The notes under the pieces were generated by a model. That model saw only the letters and a program-made list of their open reading frames with translations. It was not told where the DNA came from and did not search any database. Below, in pieces: positions 47,304-56,428 of a stretch of 64,000 nucleotides of DNA. Source of the stretch: Pseudomonadaceae bacterium (GTDB taxonomy: Bacteria > Pseudomonadota > Gammaproteobacteria > Pseudomonadales > Pseudomonadaceae); contig JAUVZY010000005.1 in assembly GCA_030602315.1 (NCBI GenBank), positions 1 through 64,000 on the forward strand, read 5' to 3'. How positions within the stretch are numbered: the first letter of the stretch is position 1; each line of letters starts with the position of its first letter. The translations under genes were made by a program, and so were the position numbers.

Positions 47304-48494
47304 TCACGCCGCGAGGGCGGCGGCGGCGCGTTCGATCCATTCGCGCTGTTGCGCCGCGTCGGCCCCCTCGGCGGCGAGGATGCGCGCCATGGTGAGCGCC
47401 GCGCGGCCGTTGGCGGCGGCGGTGGCGCCCGGCCCGGCGAGCGGCGCCACGGCGGCGCGCGCCTCGGGGTAGGCCTCGGCCAGCAACAGCGCCTCGGCGA
47501 GGGCGAAACGGCTTTCCGGATGCTCGGGATTCTCGGCGATCAGCTGGCGCACCCGCTTGGCGCGGGCCTGCGTGTCCTCGCCGCTCCAGAGGTCGAGGTA
47601 GGCGCGCAGGATCGCGGGCGCGGGCGCGGCGCGCCACTGCTGCTCCAGCACCTCGGCGGCCTTTTTCTCGCGCCCCTCGGCCAGATGGATGCGCGCCAGG
47701 GCGAGCGCCGCGCCGGTGTCCTCCGGCGCCAGGTCGAGGGCCTGGCGGGCGAGCTTGGCGGCATCCGCCAGGCGGCCCTCGCCGCGCGCCGCCTCGGCCC
47801 GGGCCATGGCGACGCGGGCGGTCTGGGTTTCGGTGTCGGCGGTGGCGAGCACCCCCTTCTTGCGCGCGGCGTCGAGGATCGCCTGCGCCGCGTCGAGGTT
47901 TCCGGCGCGGAGTTCGGCGGCGTAGGCCGCCTCCGCCGCCCACGCCGCCTGCGGCGCGCGGGCATGGGCGCGGCGCGCCAGCTCGGGCAGGCGCGGGTCG
48001 TCGGCGGGCAGGGTCTCGATCAGGCCGCGCAGGCCCGCGAGTTCGGTTTCCGGGGTTTCCAGCAGCGCCTCGTAGTGCGCCCGCGCGGCTTCGATGTCGC
48101 CCCGGGCGCGGTCGGCCCCGGCGGCGAGCAGGTGGGTGAGCTGCGGATTCTTGAGCGCCTTGTCGGCGTCCTTGATGCAGCGGCGCGCGGTGTCGGCGTC
48201 GCCCGCCGCGAGGGCGGTGACCGCCCCGGCGAGGGCGGCGGTGCCCTTGACCTGGCGGCGCTCGCGGCGGCTGCGGGCGAAGCGCCCGGGCAGGCCGAGG
48301 AACCCGGCGACGAAGCGCAGCACGACGTAGAGCACGAAGGCGATGGCGAGGGCGCCGACGATCGTCACCGGCACCGAGGTGTCCACCTGCCAGGCGAGCC
48401 AGCGCACCGTCACCTCGCCGGGATGGTCGGCGAGCCACACCGCGCCGCCCACCAGCGCCGCGACCGCGATCAGGTATCCGAGAATCCTCAGCAT
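47304..48494 (-). CDS. hemY: HemY-type TPR inner-membrane protein
   Basis: 396-residue protein (not protoporphyrinogen oxidase): two N-terminal membrane helices (about 2-22 and 42-63) in the HemY_N pattern VRWLAWQVDTSVPVTIVGALA, then a long TPR solenoid (GDADTARRCIKDADKALKNPQ, LAPEDTGAALALARIHLAEG, HPESRFALAEALLLAEA). It is the last gene after hemC and the UroS-Mic60 fusion, the conserved alphaproteobacterial heme/envelope block. Its molecular role is not defined. Confidence 0.88.
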   Translation of the reverse strand: MLRILGYLIAVAALVGGAVWLADHPGEVTVRWLAWQVDTSVPVTIVGALAIAFVLYVVLRFVAGFLGLPGRFARSRRERRQVKGTAALAGAVTALAAGDADTARRCIKDADKALKNPQLTHLLAAGADRARGDIEAARAHYEALLETPETELAGLRGLIETLPADDPRLPELARRAHARAPQAAWAAEAAYAAELRAGNLDAAQAILDAARKKGVLATADTETQTARVAMARAEAARGEGRLADAAKLARQALDLAPEDTGAALALARIHLAEGREKKAAEVLEQQWRAAPAPAILRAYLDLWSGEDTQARAKRVRQLIAENPEHPESRFALAEALLLAEAYPEARAAVAPLAGPGATAAANGRAALTMARILAAEGADAAQQREWIERAAAALAA

Positions 48495-48498
48495 GGCG

Positions 48499-50574
48499 TC
48501 AGCCTCCCGTCTTCTGCGTCGGCTGCTGCATCGCGCTGGCGGCGACGCGGGCGAGGGCGTCGGCGGTGAGCGTCGAGAGTGCGGCGTCGAGCTGCACGCG
48601 GCGTTCGGCGCGGGCGAGCCACGGCTTCAGCGCCGCCGCCACCGCCGGGTCCTGGATGCTGCCGAGTTCGCGGATCGCGCCGGAGAGGTCGCCGCCGTCC
48701 ATCAGGCGCTCGGCGCGCACCAGCACCGCGCCGACGCTGTCGGTGTCGGAGCCGCCGTCGATGCGGCGCACCGTCACCAGGCCGGAGACGCGGGCGAGGG
48801 TCTTGTCGAGCAGGCCGTCGCCCGCCGGGGCGTTGGCGGCCTTGGCGGCGGCGGTGGCGGTGCGCTGGAAGCCCTGGCGCAGCGCCGCCACCGTCGGCAC
48901 CCCTTCGGCGGCGACGGCGGCGAAGGCCTCGGCGCGGGCGTCGAAGGCGGATTTGTCGTCGGCGAGGGCGCGGGCGGTGCGCAATTCGGCGTCGAAGGGT
49001 TCGCCGTCCTGGGCCTTGGCGCGCAGCTGCACCACCGCCAGAAGGTTGGCGAGGGAGGCATCGTGGCGCGACACCATGGCGCGGGCCATCGCCTCCACCT
49101 CGGTGATGCGGTCGTTGAGCTTGAGCACGCTCGACGCCTCGGCGCGGCTGGCCTCGACGGCGGCGACGCGGCGGGAGATCGCCTCCAGCTCGTCGCGCTG
49201 GGCGATGCCGCGCTGCTCGATCTTGCCGGAAAGGGTCTTGGCGTTCTCGGCGAGCTGTTCCACCCGCCCGGCGATCAGGTCGAGGCGGTGCGGCACGTCG
49301 CCCGCCGCGCCGGAGGCCTGCGGCGCGCCCGAGCCGCCGCCCACCGACAGGGAGCCGAGGCGGGAATCGAGGGCGGCGAGGCGCTCCTTGAGGGCGCCGA
49401 TCTCGGCGACGACGTTGCCCGAGGGCGGCACCGCGTCGGTGACGTCCTCGATCATGCCGCTCATGGTCTTGACCTCGGCGCGCAGGCGGGCCAGCTCGGT
49501 GCGGTTGGCGTCGACGTTCTTTTCGAGATCGGCGATCAAGGCGCGGGTCTCGCTCACCGGCAGGTCGGGGAGATAGCTGCGGTAGGGCATCGGCACCTTG
49601 TCGCGCCAATACGGAACCGACGCATAGGCGCCGAGGCCGACCACCGCCGCCAGCAGCAGCGCGATCATCGTGCCGCGGCCCGAGCCGCCCGACGGCGCCT
49701 CCTCCTCGGCTTCCTCGACGGTCGGCTCCTCGGCCGCGCGCTCGGCTTCCGCCTCCGCCGCGACCGGCACCGGGGCCTCGCCTTCGGCTTCCTTTTCCGG
49801 GGTCATCGTGCTGTCTCCACCGTTTGCCTCCGCCGCGGGCGCGGCGACGGGTTCGTCGTCCGCCGGTCGGTCCGCATCGAGAACCGCCAGCAGCGCCTCC
49901 TGTTCCGGGTGCGGCGCCACCCGCACGTCGCGCCACGGCGCGGCGCGCAGCCGCTCCGCCACCGCAGGCGACAGCGCGTAGGCCGTGAGAGCGGCCAAGT
50001 GGCCGTCCACACCCGCATTTTTAGCCAGAGTAACGAAAGTCTCGGCGGTGCGGGGCGAAAAAAACAGCGCCGCGTCGAGCGCCCCGGATTCCAAGGCTTC
50101 CACCAGCTCCCCCGACAGCGCCACGGCGGTGCGGGATTCGTAGAGCTGCACCTTGCGCACCTCGAATCCGCGTTGCGCGAGAGCGCCTTGCAGGTCGCCC
50201 GCGACGACGTTGGCGGCGACGTGGAGCAGCGGCCCGAGGGCGGGTTCGAGTTCGTGCGCCACCAGTTCGGCGAGCAGGTCCACGTCGCCCCCCGCCGCGT
50301 GGACGTGGGTGTAGCCGAGGCGCCGCGCCTCCGCCGCCGAGGCCTCGCCCACGGCGTAGACCGGGGTTTCGCGGTCGGCGGAGGCCGCCGCCATGGCGCG
50401 CACGCCGTTGGCGCTGGTGAACAGCACCGCCTGGATGCCGCGCATGTCGAGCTGCGGCGCGGCCACCGGCACCACCGCCAGCATCGGCTCGATCCGCACG
50501 CCGTAGCCGCGCGCCCGCAGCAGCGCGGCGGTCTCCTGGGCGTCGTCGTGGGGACGGGTGACGAGAACCTGCAT
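48499..50574 (-). CDS. hemD: Uroporphyrinogen-III synthase fused to a Mic60/mitofilin-like membrane protein
   Basis: One 691-residue ORF. Residues 1-240 are HemD: VLVTRPHDDAQETAALL, AVLFTSANGVRA and LYESRTAVAL, closing hydroxymethylbilane to uroporphyrinogen III in the cytosol. A linker with Glu/Ala-rich stretch (257-298) leads to one membrane helix (about 303-323), then a periplasmic coiled-coil (340-500) and the mitofilin-type C-terminal region with the LARVSGLVTVRRIDGG motif. An internal ATG at 49806 (Met257) has GGTGGAG upstream, so a separate Mic60 form could be made. No stop separates the parts. Elsewhere these are usually two genes. Confidence 0.85.
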   Translation of the reverse strand: MQVLVTRPHDDAQETAALLRARGYGVRIEPMLAVVPVAAPQLDMRGIQAVLFTSANGVRAMAAASADRETPVYAVGEASAAEARRLGYTHVHAAGGDVDLLAELVAHELEPALGPLLHVAANVVAGDLQGALAQRGFEVRKVQLYESRTAVALSGELVEALESGALDAALFFSPRTAETFVTLAKNAGVDGHLAALTAYALSPAVAERLRAAPWRDVRVAPHPEQEALLAVLDADRPADDEPVAAPAAEANGGDSTMTPEKEAEGEAPVPVAAEAEAERAAEEPTVEEAEEEAPSGGSGRGTMIALLLAAVVGLGAYASVPYWRDKVPMPYRSYLPDLPVSETRALIADLEKNVDANRTELARLRAEVKTMSGMIEDVTDAVPPSGNVVAEIGALKERLAALDSRLGSLSVGGGSGAPQASGAAGDVPHRLDLIAGRVEQLAENAKTLSGKIEQRGIAQRDELEAISRRVAAVEASRAEASSVLKLNDRITEVEAMARAMVSRHDASLANLLAVVQLRAKAQDGEPFDAELRTARALADDKSAFDARAEAFAAVAAEGVPTVAALRQGFQRTATAAAKAANAPAGDGLLDKTLARVSGLVTVRRIDGGSDTDSVGAVLVRAERLMDGGDLSGAIRELGSIQDPAVAAALKPWLARAERRVQLDAALSTLTADALARVAASAMQQPTQKTGG

Positions 50575-50592
50575 GCCGGTCTCCTTTCGGGG

Positions 50593-51513
50593 TCAGAGGC
50601 CTCCGCTCGCGGCCTTCACCTCGCGGCCCGCGTCGGAGCCGATCGCCTCGGCCTCCGCCACGGCGCCCGCGCGGCGGGCCTCGAAGATCGCCGAGCCGTC
50701 GGGCCGCGCGAGGCGGCCGAGGAACGACAGGCGGCCATCCGCGCCCAGGCGCGCGAGGCCGCCGATGGGGGTGCGGCAGGAGCCGTCGAGCACCCGCAGG
50801 AAGGCGCGCTCGCACGCCACCTCGGCGAAGGTGGCGGCGTCGGCGATGCGCGCCAGCCACGCTTGCGCGCGGGCGTCGTCGGTGCGGCAGGTGACGCCGA
50901 TGGCGCCCTGCGCCACCGCGGGCAGCATCTCCTCCACCGTGAGGATTCCGGCGGCGCGGTCGGCGAGGCCGAGGCGGCGCAGGCCCGCCAGCGCCAGCAG
51001 GGTCGCGTCCACCACGCCGTCGGCGAGCTTGGCGAGGCGGGATTGCACGTTGCCGCGGAAGGTCACCACCTTGAGATCGGGCCGCCGCGCCAGCACGAAG
51101 GCGCCGCGCCGCAGGCTGGCGGTGCCCACCGTCGCACCCCCGGGCAGGGCGTCGAGGGAGGCGGCGACCGGCGAGAGAAAGGCGTCGCGCGGGTCCTCGC
51201 GCGGCAGCATGCAGGGCAGGTCGATGCCCTCGGGCAGCCAGGTCGGCACGTCCTTCATCGAGTGCACCGCGATGTCGATGCGGCGTTCCAGCATCGCCTC
51301 GTCGATCTCCTTGGTGAACAGGCCCTTGCCCCCGGCCTCGGACAACGGCCGGTCGAGGATGCGGTCGCCGCTGGTCTTGATCACCAGCACCGCGATGGCG
51401 CCGTCGGCGGCGAGTTCGGGCACGGCGGCGCGCAGGGCGGCGGCGACCATGTCGGTCTGGGCCAATGCCAGGGGGCTGCCGCGGGTTCCGATGGTGAGAA
51501 GCGGGTGGGACAT
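50593..51513 (-). CDS. hemC: Hydroxymethylbilane synthase (porphobilinogen deaminase)
   Basis: 306-residue cytosolic enzyme polymerising four porphobilinogens. TIGTRGSPLALAQTDMV start, GTASLRRGA, FRGNVQSRLAKL and the cofactor-attachment cysteine in LDGSCRTPIGG. It makes the substrate of the UroS domain encoded 18 bp downstream. Divergent from tsaD over 103 bp. Confidence 0.95.
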   Translation of the reverse strand: MSHPLLTIGTRGSPLALAQTDMVAAALRAAVPELAADGAIAVLVIKTSGDRILDRPLSEAGGKGLFTKEIDEAMLERRIDIAVHSMKDVPTWLPEGIDLPCMLPREDPRDAFLSPVAASLDALPGGATVGTASLRRGAFVLARRPDLKVVTFRGNVQSRLAKLADGVVDATLLALAGLRRLGLADRAAGILTVEEMLPAVAQGAIGVTCRTDDARAQAWLARIADAATFAEVACERAFLRVLDGSCRTPIGGLARLGADGRLSFLGRLARPDGSAIFEARRAGAVAEAEAIGSDAGREVKAASGGL

Positions 51514-51616: not shown

Positions 51617-52675
51617 ATGATCGTCCTCGGCATCGAAACCAGTTGCGACGAAACCGCCGCCGCCGTCGTCGGCGACGACCGCCGCATCCTGTCCAACGTC
51701 GTCGCCTCGCAGATCGCCACCCATCGCCCGTTCGGCGGCGTGGTGCCGGAAATCGCGGCGCGCGCCCACCTCGGGCAGATCGACGCGGTGATCCGCGCGG
51801 CGCTCGCCGAGGCGGGCGTGGGCGTGGGCGACCTCGACGCGGTGGCCGCCGCCGCCGGGCCGGGGCTGATCGGCGGCGTGCTGGTGGGCGTCACCGCCGC
51901 CAAGGCGATCGCGGCGGCGCGCGGCATTCCGTTCGTGGCGGTGAACCATCTGGCGGGCCACGCCCTCACCGCCCGCCTCACCGACGGCGTGCCCTTCCCC
52001 TTCCTGCTGCTGCTCACCTCCGGCGGCCATTGCCAGACCCTGATCGTCAAGGGGCCGGAGGACTACGTGCGCCTCGGCACCACCATCGACGACGCGGCGG
52101 GCGAGGCCTTCGACAAGACCGCCAAGATGATCGGCCTGCCCTACCCCGGCGGCCCGGAGATCGAACGCCACGCGGCGGGCGGCGACCCCAGGCGCTTCCC
52201 CCTGCCGCGGCCGATGAAGGGCGCGCCGGGGTGCGACTTCTCCTTCTCCGGCCTCAAGACCGCGGTGCGCCACACCCTCGACAAGCTCCCCGGCCCGCCG
52301 TCCCCCGCCGACGTCGCCGACCTCTGCGCCGCGATCCAGGCGGCGATCACCGATTCCCTGTGCGCGCGCCTCAAGCCCGCGCTCGCCGCCTTCCGCGCCG
52401 CCTGCCCCGAAGGGCGGCACCTGGTGGTGGCGGGCGGCGTCGCCGCCAACCGCCATCTGCGCGCCGCGCTGGCCGCCCAGGCGGAGAAATCCGGGCTTGC
52501 GTTCGTGGCGCCGCCGCTGCCACTCTGCACCGACAACGGCGCGATGATCGCCTGGGCGGGGCTGGAACGGCTGCGGCACCTCGGCCACGGCGATCCGCTC
52601 GACTTCAAACCCCGGCCGCGCTGGCCGCTCGACGGCGACGCCCCGAAGGCGCGCGGCGCGGGCGTCAAAGCCTAG
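51617..52675 (+). CDS. tsaD: tRNA N6-adenosine threonylcarbamoyltransferase
   Basis: 352-residue TsaD, transferring threonylcarbamoyl to A37 of ANN-reading tRNAs with TsaB and Tsa[15 protein letters not shown] start, HLGQIDAVI, iron-binding region [23 protein letters not shown], and GGPEIERHA. First gene of tsaD-gpsA-yciI-EVE, the common alphaproteobacterial order. Start ATG 51617; an earlier TTG is possible but unneeded. Confidence 0.96.
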
Positions 52676-52683
52676 GAGACCCC

Positions 52684-53676
52684 ATGGAACGGATCGGCAT
52701 CGTCGGCGCGGGCGCATGGGGCACCGCCTTGGCCATCGTCGCCGCCCGCGCCGGGCGCGAGGCGGTGCTGTGGGCCCACGAGCCGGAGACCGCGCGGGGC
52801 ATCGCCGCCGCCCGCGAAAACCGCGTCTACCTGCCCGGCATCCCCCTCGACCCCCTGATCGCGCCGACCGCGAACCTCGCCGAGGCCGCCGCCTGCGACG
52901 TGGTGCTGTGGGTCACCCCGGCGCAGTTCGTGCGCCCGGTGCTGCGCCAGTTCGCCCGCCACCACCGCCCCGGCACGCCGGTGGTGATGTGCGCCAAGGG
53001 CATCGAGGAAGGCAGCTTCGCCCTGATGAGCGACGTGCTGGCGGATGAACTGCCGGAGGCGCCCTGGGGCGTGCTCTCCGGCCCCACCTTCGCCGCCGAG
53101 GTGGCGCGCGGCCAGCCCACCGCCATCACCCTCGCCTGCGAAGACGAATCCCTCGCCGCCCGCCTCGCCGACGCGCTGGCAGCGCCGGGCTTCCGCCCCT
53201 ATTGGTCGAAGGACGTGATCGCGGCGGAGGTCGGCGGCGCGGTCAAGAACGTGCTGGCGATCGCCTGCGGCATCGTCTCCGGCCGCAACCTCGGCCACAA
53301 CGCCCAGGCCGCCCTGATCACCCGCGGCATCGCCGAGATCACCCGTCTCGCGGTGGCGAAGGGGGCGGAGGAGGTGTCGCTGATGGGCCTCGCGGGCCTG
53401 GGCGATTTGATCCTCACCGCCACCTCGATGATGTCGCGCAACTTCTCGCTCGGCGCGGCGCTGGGCGAGGGGCAGAGCCTCGAGAGCATTCTCGGCGCGC
53501 GCCGCGCCGTCACCGAAGGGGTGTTCACCGCCCGCGCGGTGCGCGACCTCGCCGCCCGCACCGGCATCGACATGCCGATCGCCTCCGCCGTCGCCGCGAT
53601 CCTGTTCGACGGCGCGGGCATCGACGCCACCATCACCGACCTGCTCGCGCGGCCGCTCCGCGCCGAGCGCGACTGA
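52684..53676 (+). CDS. gpsA: Glycerol-3-phosphate dehydrogenase (NAD(P)+)
   Basis: 330-residue cytosolic enzyme reducing dihydroxyacetone phosphate to sn-glycerol 3-phosphate for phospholipid synthesis. Rossmann motif GAGAWGTALA at residues 7-16, CAKGIEEGSFALMSD, SGPTFAAEVA, catalytic Lys in GGAVKNVLAIACGI and GLAGLGDLILT. Begins 8 bp after tsaD in the same direction. Confidence 0.96.
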   Translation: MERIGIVGAGAWGTALAIVAARAGREAVLWAHEPETARGIAAARENRVYLPGIPLDPLIAPTANLAEAAACDVVLWVTPAQFVRPVLRQFARHHRPGTPVVMCAKGIEEGSFALMSDVLADELPEAPWGVLSGPTFAAEVARGQPTAITLACEDESLAARLADALAAPGFRPYWSKDVIAAEVGGAVKNVLAIACGIVSGRNLGHNAQAALITRGIAEITRLAVAKGAEEVSLMGLAGLGDLILTATSMMSRNFSLGAALGEGQSLESILGARRAVTEGVFTARAVRDLAARTGIDMPIASAVAAILFDGAGIDATITDLLARPLRAERD

Positions 53677-53696: not shown

Positions 53697-53972
53697 ATGC
53701 TGTTCGCCGTCACCTGCCTCGACAAGCCCGGCGCCCTCGAGACCCGCCTCGCCAACCGCGCCGCCCACCTGGAGTACGCCGCCAAGCTGCCGCTGGTGGT
53801 GGGCGGGCCGATGCTCGCCGACGACGGCGAGGGCATGGTCGGCTCGCTGCTGGTGATCGAGGCGCCCGACCGCGAAAGCCTGGAAAAGACCCTCGCCGAG
53901 GACCCCTACGCCAAGGCGGGCCTGTTCCAGAGCGTCACCATCCGCCCGTTCAAGAAGGTGTTCCCGAAGTAG
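53697..53972 (+). CDS. YciI-like protein
   Basis: 91-residue YCII-fold protein: LFAVTCLDKPGALETRLANRAAHLEY, GPMLADDGEGMVGSLLVIEA, DPYAKAGLFQSVTIRPF. The central His (in HLEY) and Asp are the conserved pair of the family. Exact reaction unknown. Follows gpsA by 20 bp, ATG after AAAGGGAGAAA. Confidence 0.88.
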   Translation: MLFAVTCLDKPGALETRLANRAAHLEYAAKLPLVVGGPMLADDGEGMVGSLLVIEAPDRESLEKTLAEDPYAKAGLFQSVTIRPFKKVFPK

Positions 53973-54030: not shown

Positions 54031-54444
54031 ATGGCCCATTGGCTGCTGAAATCCGAACCCGGCGAGTGGAGCTGGGACGACCAAGCCGGCGTGGAACGCG
54101 AGGCGTGGACCGGCGTGCGCAACCACCTGGCGGCGCGCCACCTGCGGGAGATGCGCGCCGGCGACACCGCGTTCTTCTACCACTCGGTGACCGAGAAGCG
54201 CGTCGTCGGCATCGTCGAGATCGTCGGCGAGGCGGAGCCGGACCCTACCGACCCGTCGGCCAAGTTCGTGATCGTCTGGGTCAAGGCCAAGGCGCCGCTG
54301 CCCCAGCCGGTAGACCTCGCCACCATCAAGGCCGACCCGGAGCTGGCCGAGTTGCCGCTGGTGCGCCAGGCGCGCCTGTCGGTGATGCCGATCCCCGACG
54401 CGGCGTGGGCCAAGATCTGCCGGATGGGCGGGGTGGAGGCATGA
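54031..54444 (+). CDS. EVE-domain protein
   Basis: 137-residue EVE protein of the PUA-like fold: HWLLKSEPGEWSWDDQ, GVRNHLAARHLREMRAGDTAFFYHS, VGIVEIVGEAEPDP and PLVRQARLSVMPIPDAAW. EVE proteins read modified bases in nucleic acids; this housekeeping type (YTH-like pocket with Trp/Ser) is widespread next to gpsA or yciI. The stop overlaps the HAD gene ATG. Confidence 0.9.
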   Translation: MAHWLLKSEPGEWSWDDQAGVEREAWTGVRNHLAARHLREMRAGDTAFFYHSVTEKRVVGIVEIVGEAEPDPTDPSAKFVIVWVKAKAPLPQPVDLATIKADPELAELPLVRQARLSVMPIPDAAWAKICRMGGVEA

Positions 54445-55064: not shown

Positions 55065-56428
55065 ACCTGTCGTGTTTCAAGGCCTACGACATCCGCGGCC
55101 GCGTGCCCACCGAGCTGGATCCGGAACTGGCGCGTCGCATCGGCCGCGCCTTCGCCGAGGTGGTGGAGCCGGGGACCGTGGTGGTCGGCCACGACGCCCG
55201 GCTGGAAAGCCCCGAGCTGGCGCGCGCGCTGATCGACGGCCTCACCCAGGGCGGCGCCGACGTCGTCGACATCGGCCTGTGCGCCACCGAGGAAGTCTAC
55301 TTCCAGACCGCGCACCGGGAGGCCGAGGGCGTCGGCGGCGGCATCATGGTCACCGCCAGCCACAACCCCAAGGGCACCAACGGCATGAAGCTGGTGCGCC
55401 AGGGGGCGCGGCCGATCTCGGGCGACAGCGGCCTCGACGCGATCCGCGCGCGCGTCGCCGCGCCCGAGCCGCCGGTGCGGCGGGTCGGCAAGGCGGTACG
55501 CGACGCCGACAAATCCGCCTACGTCGAGCACCTGTTGAGCTTCGTCGACGCCGCCCAGCTGAAGCCGCTGAAAATCCTCGCCGACGCGGGCAACGGCGTG
55601 GCCGGGCCGATCGTCGAGCGGCTGGCGCAGCGCCTGCCCTTCGCCATCGAGCTGGTGCGCGGCACGCCGGACGGCGAGTTCCCCGACGGCGTGCCCAACC
55701 CGCTGCTGCCGGAAATGCGCGCCGCCACCGCCCAGGCGGTGGTGCAGCACCAAGCCGATTTCGGCGTGGCGTGGGACGGCGACGCCGACCGCTGCTTCCT
55801 CTACGACGGCGAGGGCAACTTCATCGAGGGCTACTACCTCGTCGGCCTGCTGGCGGAGGCGATGCTCGCCCGCCACCCGGGCGCCAAGATCATCCACGAC
55901 CCGCGCCTGGAATGGAGCACGGTGGCCGACGTCGACCGCTGCGGCGGCACCGCGGTGCGCTGCAAGACCGGCCACGCCTTCATCAAGGAGCGGATGCGCA
56001 AGGAAGACGCGGTCTACGGCGGCGAGATGAGCGGCCACCACTACTTCCGCGATTTCGCCTACTGCGACACCGGCATGGTGCCGTGGCTCCTGATCGCGTC
56101 GCTGGTCTCGGCCTCGGGCAAATCGCTCGCCGAACTGGTGCGGGAGCGCATGGCCGCCTTCCCCTGCTCGGGCGAAATCAACTTCGAGACCGACGCGGCC
56201 GCCGCCACCGACCGCATCCTTGCCCACTACCTACCGATGAACCCCGAGCGCGACGACACCGACGGCGTCTCGCTCGACTTCGGCGACTGGCGCTTCAACC
56301 TCCGCCGCTCCAACACCGAACCCCTGCTCCGCCTCAACATCGAAACCCGCGGCGACGCCGTGGCGGTGCGCTACCACCTCGAAGCCCTCACCGCCCTGAT
56401 CGGCACCGAGCCGAAAGGGGCGCATTGA
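55061..56428 (+). CDS. manB: Phosphomannomutase/phosphoglucomutase
   Basis: 455-residue alpha-D-phosphohexomutase that interconverts mannose 6- and 1-phosphate (and glucose phosphates) for GDP-mannose. Catalytic serine in TASHNPKGTNGMK (about residue 102), magnesium loop DGDADRCF, sugar loop GEMSGHHYF and phosphate loop RRSNTEPLLRL. It supplies the GDP-mannose pathway used by gmd and fcl to the right. Confidence 0.94.
   Translation: MNLSCFKAYDIRGRVPTELDPELARRIGRAFAEVVEPGTVVVGHDARLESPELARALIDGLTQGGADVVDIGLCATEEVYFQTAHREAEGVGGGIMVTASHNPKGTNGMKLVRQGARPISGDSGLDAIRARVAAPEPPVRRVGKAVRDADKSAYVEHLLSFVDAAQLKPLKILADAGNGVAGPIVERLAQRLPFAIELVRGTPDGEFPDGVPNPLLPEMRAATAQAVVQHQADFGVAWDGDADRCFLYDGEGNFIEGYYLVGLLAEAMLARHPGAKIIHDPRLEWSTVADVDRCGGTAVRCKTGHAFIKERMRKEDAVYGGEMSGHHYFRDFAYCDTGMVPWLLIASLVSASGKSLAELVRERMAAFPCSGEINFETDAAAATDRILAHYLPMNPERDDTDGVSLDFGDWRFNLRRSNTEPLLRLNIETRGDAVAVRYHLEALTALIGTEPKGAH

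Follow-up and report, generated by a model that had tools for sequence, protein, structure and literature searches.

A recurrent in-frame fusion of uroporphyrinogen-III synthase and Mic60 retains a conserved internal start and probably gives two products

Introduction

Bacterial Mic60 is related to the mitochondrial cristae organiser, and to our knowledge the placement of its gene among the heme genes has not been explained. Fusions of HemD to other proteins are familiar, as in the HemD-HemX of betaproteobacteria and in CobA-HemD, and an architecture of HEM4 plus Mitofilin is probably listed in domain databases. In-frame internal starts that yield a short C-terminal product are also established, an example being Cas11, which is made from within cas8 or cas10d genes. 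A further fusion is recorded in the PDB, where entry 9i49 is named "Coenzyme B12-dependent mutase,Uroporphyrinogen-III synthase".

The alphaproteobacterial operon hemC-hemD-mic60(IMMP)-hemY has been described head to head with tsaD-gpsA-yciI-EVE (PMC7641849). The stretch of DNA analyzed here, a window of 64,000 nucleotides (positions 1 to 64,000 of contig JAUVZY010000005.1, assembly GCA_030602315.1), holds, going by excerpts of that paper, the identical genes in the same order with the same divergent module; it differs in that hemD and mic60 form one frame, a fusion that those excerpts do not mention. As portrayed in excerpts of two further papers (PMC12136173, PMC9764997), bacterial Mic60/mitofilin proteins share with the window protein a single hydrophobic segment, a C-terminal Mitofilin match and long helices, the last taken here from a weak model, and are distinguished from it by the N-terminal uroporphyrinogen-III synthase (UroS) domain that the window protein bears. 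Our word searches of the literature, in which little of the primary Mic60 work was covered, returned neither the fusion nor an internal mic60 start.

Results

One open frame encodes HemD and Mic60

A preliminary description of the locus, made from the DNA letters, reported HemD and Mic60 as a single 691-residue frame at 48499-50574, and we found these coordinates to be exact and both domains to be matched by Pfam (Table 1). The HemY encoded downstream is a HemY_N/TPR protein, not protoporphyrinogen oxidase, and its Shine-Dalgarno-like (SD) sequence GGGAGG (-10.3), at 48503-48508, lies within the final mic60 codons.

Table 1. Coordinates of the fused gene, its parts and its neighbors in the window
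Feature	Position	Strand	Remarks
hemD-mic60 fused ORF, 691 aa	48499..50574	-	ATG at 50574, stop ends at 48499, no internal stop
Shine-Dalgarno-like AAAGGAGA of full-length start	50580..50587	-	duplex energy -8.7 kcal/mol
HEM4 / uroporphyrinogen-III synthase domain, residues 14-229	49888..50535	-	Pfam PF02602, E 7.7e-41
Linker, residues 234-301	49672..49875	-	acidic past Met257: 14 D/E and 3 K/R in residues 257-303
Internal Shine-Dalgarno-like GGTGGAG	49815..49821	-	GGAG to Met257, 8 nt; within GCAAAC-GGTGGAGA stretch kept at nucleotide level
Internal ATG, Met257	49804..49806	-	mic60 starts of the unfused relatives G064 and G062 align here
Predicted free Mic60 product, 435 aa	48499..49806	-	Pfam Mitofilin E 9.2e-17 on that stretch by itself
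Hydrophobic segment, residues 302-320, predicted membrane anchor	49615..49671	-	19-residue hydropathy 2.08
Mitofilin match, residues 440-673	48556..49257	-	Pfam PF09731, E 2.6e-16
hemY (HemY_N + TPR), downstream	47304..48494	-	start 4 nt past Mic60 stop
hemC, upstream of fused ORF, same direction	50593..51513	-	TIGR00212, 333.2 bits, cut-off 164
tsaD, divergent	51617-52675		
gpsA, divergent	52684-53676		
YCII-domain gene (YciI), divergent	53697-53972		
EVE-domain gene, divergent	54031-54444		

Judged by its residues, the UroS domain is apparently intact: the HEM4 match reaches 140.2 bits against a cut-off of 27.5 and spans positions 2-230 of the 231-position profile, and 59 of the 63 columns conserved in unfused alphaproteobacterial HemD are kept, among them the tyrosine at residue 145, which all unfused sequences covering this column share. 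The equivalog cut-off of NCBIfam was not reached (best model NF006621, 128.1 bits versus 223), this model being narrower than the Pfam family, and neither Pfam nor NCBIfam gave a HemX match to the fused protein at E<=1. The Mitofilin match (60.1 bits, cut-off 27.4) covers positions 367-613 of 614 in its profile, with 18 of 23 columns conserved in unfused Mic60 retained.

Between the two domains, the acidic linker is probably disordered, as its model shows neither helix nor strand at residues 234-299, with low confidence. Residues 302-320 form the only hydrophobic segment of their kind in the fused protein, the highest window elsewhere scoring 1.1, and helices are modeled from residue 340 to 556. 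The structure model behind the linker and helix readings was built on two sequences and has a mean pLDDT of 49.4, too weak to use further. Searches of PDB sequences gave weak matches alone, the best being 1jr2, a uroporphyrinogen-III synthase (E 0.0022), and 7pv1, a MIC60-MIC19 fusion (E 0.025), and the fused protein had no match in a library of defense systems.

The window contig appears to be alphaproteobacterial

The assembly that holds the window (G000) is 78% complete and contains another lineage as well. The window lies on contig C35 of this assembly (127,077 bases), and a second HEM4 gene lies on contig C29, in the order hemC-hemD-HemX-hemY, which we read as gammaproteobacterial. Two full TsaD genes are present, one on C11 and one on C35. 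Among 57 genomes (G000 and 56 relatives), the fused protein was matched over its length in G000 alone, with weak HemD-only matches in two others. Contig JAUVUZ010000017.1 (L006), from the metagenome-assembled genome CSMAG_1151, labeled Alphaproteobacteria bacterium, equals the window over 14,073 bases with one mismatch, at window position 56005, outside the fused ORF. Because of the two HEM4 and two TsaD genes, the HemX-type operon on C29, the lack of a full-length match in the relatives and the near-identity to CSMAG_1151, the window contig is very probably an alphaproteobacterial one misbinned into a gammaproteobacterial assembly, and we took CSMAG_1151 (G057) as the center of the search for relatives. 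If JAUVUZ010000017.1 stays collinear with the window beyond the 14,073-base stretch, one of its ends lies at about window base 6; this suggests shared reads or a common breakpoint, and the two assemblies are not surely independent.

Fused and split states among relatives

A check of relatives for the same fusion, proposed in the preliminary description, recovered it at the identical junction in SZUA-538 (L007/G058, 75% amino-acid identity), G059 (84%, on a 4.04 Mb contig) and G060 (70%). In G057-G060, all draft genomes in which a second copy could be missed, the fused gene is the sole HEM4 match and likewise the sole Mitofilin match. Since no other HEM4 gene is matched there, the fused gene must be the source of UroS, which stays joined to Mic60 unless cleavage in the linker frees it. 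A clear stop between the domains in close relatives had been named as a ground for rejecting the fusion; such stops are indeed found in G064 and G062, but three nearer species are fused and the fusion is not undone, so that the stops limit it to a clade.

We then counted states more widely. HEM4 was above the cut-off in 71 of 79 genomes (G057 and 78 relatives), at 90 listed places, from which 20 mostly weaker ones were left out, so that G066, G070, G082, G088 and G104 are absent, as is the second place in G087, one open frame over query residues 1-685. At the 70 places of this first set (66 genomes), HemD is fused to Mic60 in 28 cases and has it in a separate frame in 29, and no Mic60 was found at the other 13. 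A draw of 297 genomes from the order, with at most three candidates scored per genome, added 22 loci, the new ones among 30 given, a sampling that favors close relatives. The resulting 92 HEM4 loci (88 genomes) comprise 37 fused, 42 with a separate frame and 13 without Mic60 found, which rules out the fusion being a rarity of one genus.

As to copy number, 25 of the 28 fused loci in the first set are in genomes with a single HEM4 match; a second match is present in G068 and G072, and in G107 a second one falls below the cut-off. G101 has three HEM4 places (L016, L047, L075), with Mic60 detected at none of them in the stretches examined. A plasmid collection in which named fused relatives were sought returned 13 records, each amounting to 27-34% of the query, and the two inspected (Azospirillum, H1 and H2) have hemD without mic60 annotated beside it.

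On a HemD+Mic60 tree of 77 loci, the fused/split label needs 11 changes, nine of them forced by well-supported branches; this was a quick tree without bootstrap that left out L073 and L076, and it does not give the direction of the changes, fusion or split. Shuffled labels need about 25.7 changes on the same tree, so the state is also inherited. The fusion is therefore both widespread and recurrent, and the earlier statement that hemD and mic60 are usually neighboring separate genes holds for the 42 separate loci but misses a fused state that is found at 37 and recurs. Among close relatives, L092, L093 and L095 (G266, G257, G232) are split and L098, L103 and L110 (G341, G182, G324) are fused. 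In G257 an in-frame TAA stands three bases ahead of the ATG, and in G266 hemD and mic60 overlap in different frames; this group of six is useful for seeing how switching between the states occurs.

The internal start is homologous to the mic60 start codon of unfused relatives

The two nearest unfused relatives point to the origin of Met257. In G064 (59% identity), hemD ends in TAG and the mic60 ATG follows after three bases; in G062 (55% identity), the hemD stop lies further upstream and a short non-coding leader precedes the mic60 start. This leader, GGCAAAGGTGGAGA, resembles the coding GGCAAACGGTGGAGA at the same place in the window. Both start codons align with Met257 and the G062 leader matches, which makes the internal ATG of the window, together with its ribosome-binding site, the homologue of a mic60 start. 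It had been put forward as a plausible internal start at 49806 on the strength of the upstream GGTGGAG, and comparison of species now gives it firmer support than was claimed.

Within the window genome, the SD of Met257 (-6.4) is weaker than those of Met500 (-9.3), Met496 (-7.4) and Met371 (-6.6), and codon shuffling of the Glu-rich linker produced such a start in 52% of shuffles. The window alone cannot show selection, and the argument for Met257 is a comparative one. Across the four fused species, the same rare codon (<10% use) is found in 4/4 at 8 of 411 degenerate columns with an invariant amino acid, and those 8 include all three columns that could be tested within the 8 codons preceding Met257 (hypergeometric 4.9e-6, for a site fixed beforehand by the preliminary description, with the 8-codon span and the 10% limit chosen in this analysis). 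The three kept codons are GCA (2.0% use, in a column that hangs on a single gap placement in G060), GGT (6.8%) and GGA (6.8%). The same 8 codons show 0 synonymous differences against 7.0 expected, so that SD and start codon are kept with constraint at the nucleotide level. A blind scan of synonymous change in 15-codon windows placed the linker 7th among overlapping windows, and it was dropped as proof, its minimum not being significant. That minimum, the lowest synonymous change in the four species, lies at residues about 619-636 (48667-48720) and was equaled in 251 of 1000 shuffles.

An internal start of this kind was then sought across all fused loci, as an in-frame ATG with an SD energy <= -5.5 in the 60 codons past HEM4. 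It is present in 22 of 37, against 3.5 expected from windows of the same size elsewhere in the same ORFs and 9.4 from codon-shuffled linkers (0 of 100,000 simulations reached 22); the other two frames of these linkers give 5 and 0. The base after the ATG is A for 30 of 40 linker ATGs, compared with 40 of the remaining 277 ATGs in these ORFs (Fisher 1.1e-14), a preference also seen at unfused loci, where it holds for 29 of the 40 mic60 ATGs with the best SD (2 of 42 loci gave no ATG). These per-locus and per-ATG tests count related loci separately and overstate independence. The count by clade is free of this: over 19 fused clades, grouped by eye from the quick tree and including L073 (G072), which is absent from that tree, the weighted count comes to 11.17 where 4.64 would be expected, and a start above threshold occurs in 12 of the clades. 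Fifteen of the 37 loci stay below the SD threshold in the linker, 7 of the 37 having no ATG in the tested window, and lineages without a linker start at threshold may make only the fusion.

Discussion

We consider it likely that one frame with two starts serves this locus, giving a membrane-tethered HemD-Mic60 and a free Mic60. Mic60 of the known family has its N-terminus on the cytoplasmic side. Translation from the ATG at 50574 would yield a full-length protein with UroS in the cytoplasm, followed by the acidic linker, a single membrane segment and the putative coiled-coil/mitofilin part, and HemD, presumably active, would hang on the cytoplasmic side ahead of residues 302-320. Translation from Met257, if this start is used in the cell, would give free Mic60 and raise the dose of Mic60 above that of HemD. 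The frame would have arisen, or be kept, without a hemD stop, with selection retaining the mic60 start. Since a single hydrophobic segment follows the linker and hemY is adjacent, UroS is predicted to lie at the inner membrane next to HemY, as had been suggested earlier.

Other readings of the same frame deserve weighing. That an assembly or sequencing error conceals a stop might be thought of for an assembly that mixes lineages, but the identical frame in JAUVUZ010000017.1 and the fused frames of three further species rule this out, and we give it practically no credence. It is more conceivable, though still improbable, that HemD-Mic60 is the single product and the internal start a decaying relic from before the fusion: the 7 fused loci without an ATG in the linker window indicate that fusion-only lineages seem viable, and the SDs of hemY and hemD are both stronger than that of Met257. 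A relic of this kind sits poorly with the retention of rare codons at the SD across four species, three of them with 70-84% amino-acid identity to the window, and with the finding that 12 of the 19 fused clades have a member whose internal start passes the threshold. Cleavage of the finished fusion within its linker, releasing free HemD and free Mic60, seems to us very unlikely; the linker is long, acidic and of low predicted order, and a second HEM4 gene was not found in G057-G060, yet proteolysis leaves the conservation at the nucleotide level unexplained.

Selection for coupling is a different matter, as it is compatible with two starts. According to this idea, tethering of UroS to Mic60 sites brings heme synthesis to the respiratory membrane or an intracytoplasmic one, close to HemY. 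The recurrence of the fused state speaks for it, as does the hemC-hemD-mic60-hemY order seen here, which excerpts of the operon paper describe as conserved (PMC7641849). Gene order by itself can explain recurrent fusion, however, and with 11 state changes on the tree, and hemD and mic60 separate at 42 of the 79 loci that have both, we regard selected coupling as doubtful. Such frequent switching suggests that tethering is tolerated rather than required, and a benefit of the tether to heme synthesis is possible. One may go further and picture alphaproteobacteria that repeatedly join and re-split UroS and Mic60, mostly keeping the mic60 start. UroS would then be attached to a minor share of the Mic60 at membrane junctions, the rest being free, and heme supply would be tied to the architecture of the inner membrane in a reversible, dose-controlled way; we offer this as speculation that we think unlikely to hold.

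The fusion may be no more than the usual wear of an operon, and the information lies in the retained start. Many lineages carry the fusion with an internal start that can be read, which provides natural strains for testing the link between heme and Mic60, and annotating such loci as "uroporphyrinogen-III synthase" alone would hide Mic60.

Compared with known systems, the locus resembles the Cas11-type genes in having one frame and two starts, with the C-terminal part also made separately, which is predicted here; it differs from them in that the embedded start matches the one with which a separate gene begins in relatives, and in that such starts occur in many fused lineages. Similarly, it belongs with 9i49, HemD-HemX and CobA-HemD as HEM4 joined to another protein, but the partner is Mic60 and not HemX, the protein encoded at the same position on contig C29 of the window assembly. 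The domains, the operon and the internal-start trick are all known; their combination recurs and is directly testable.
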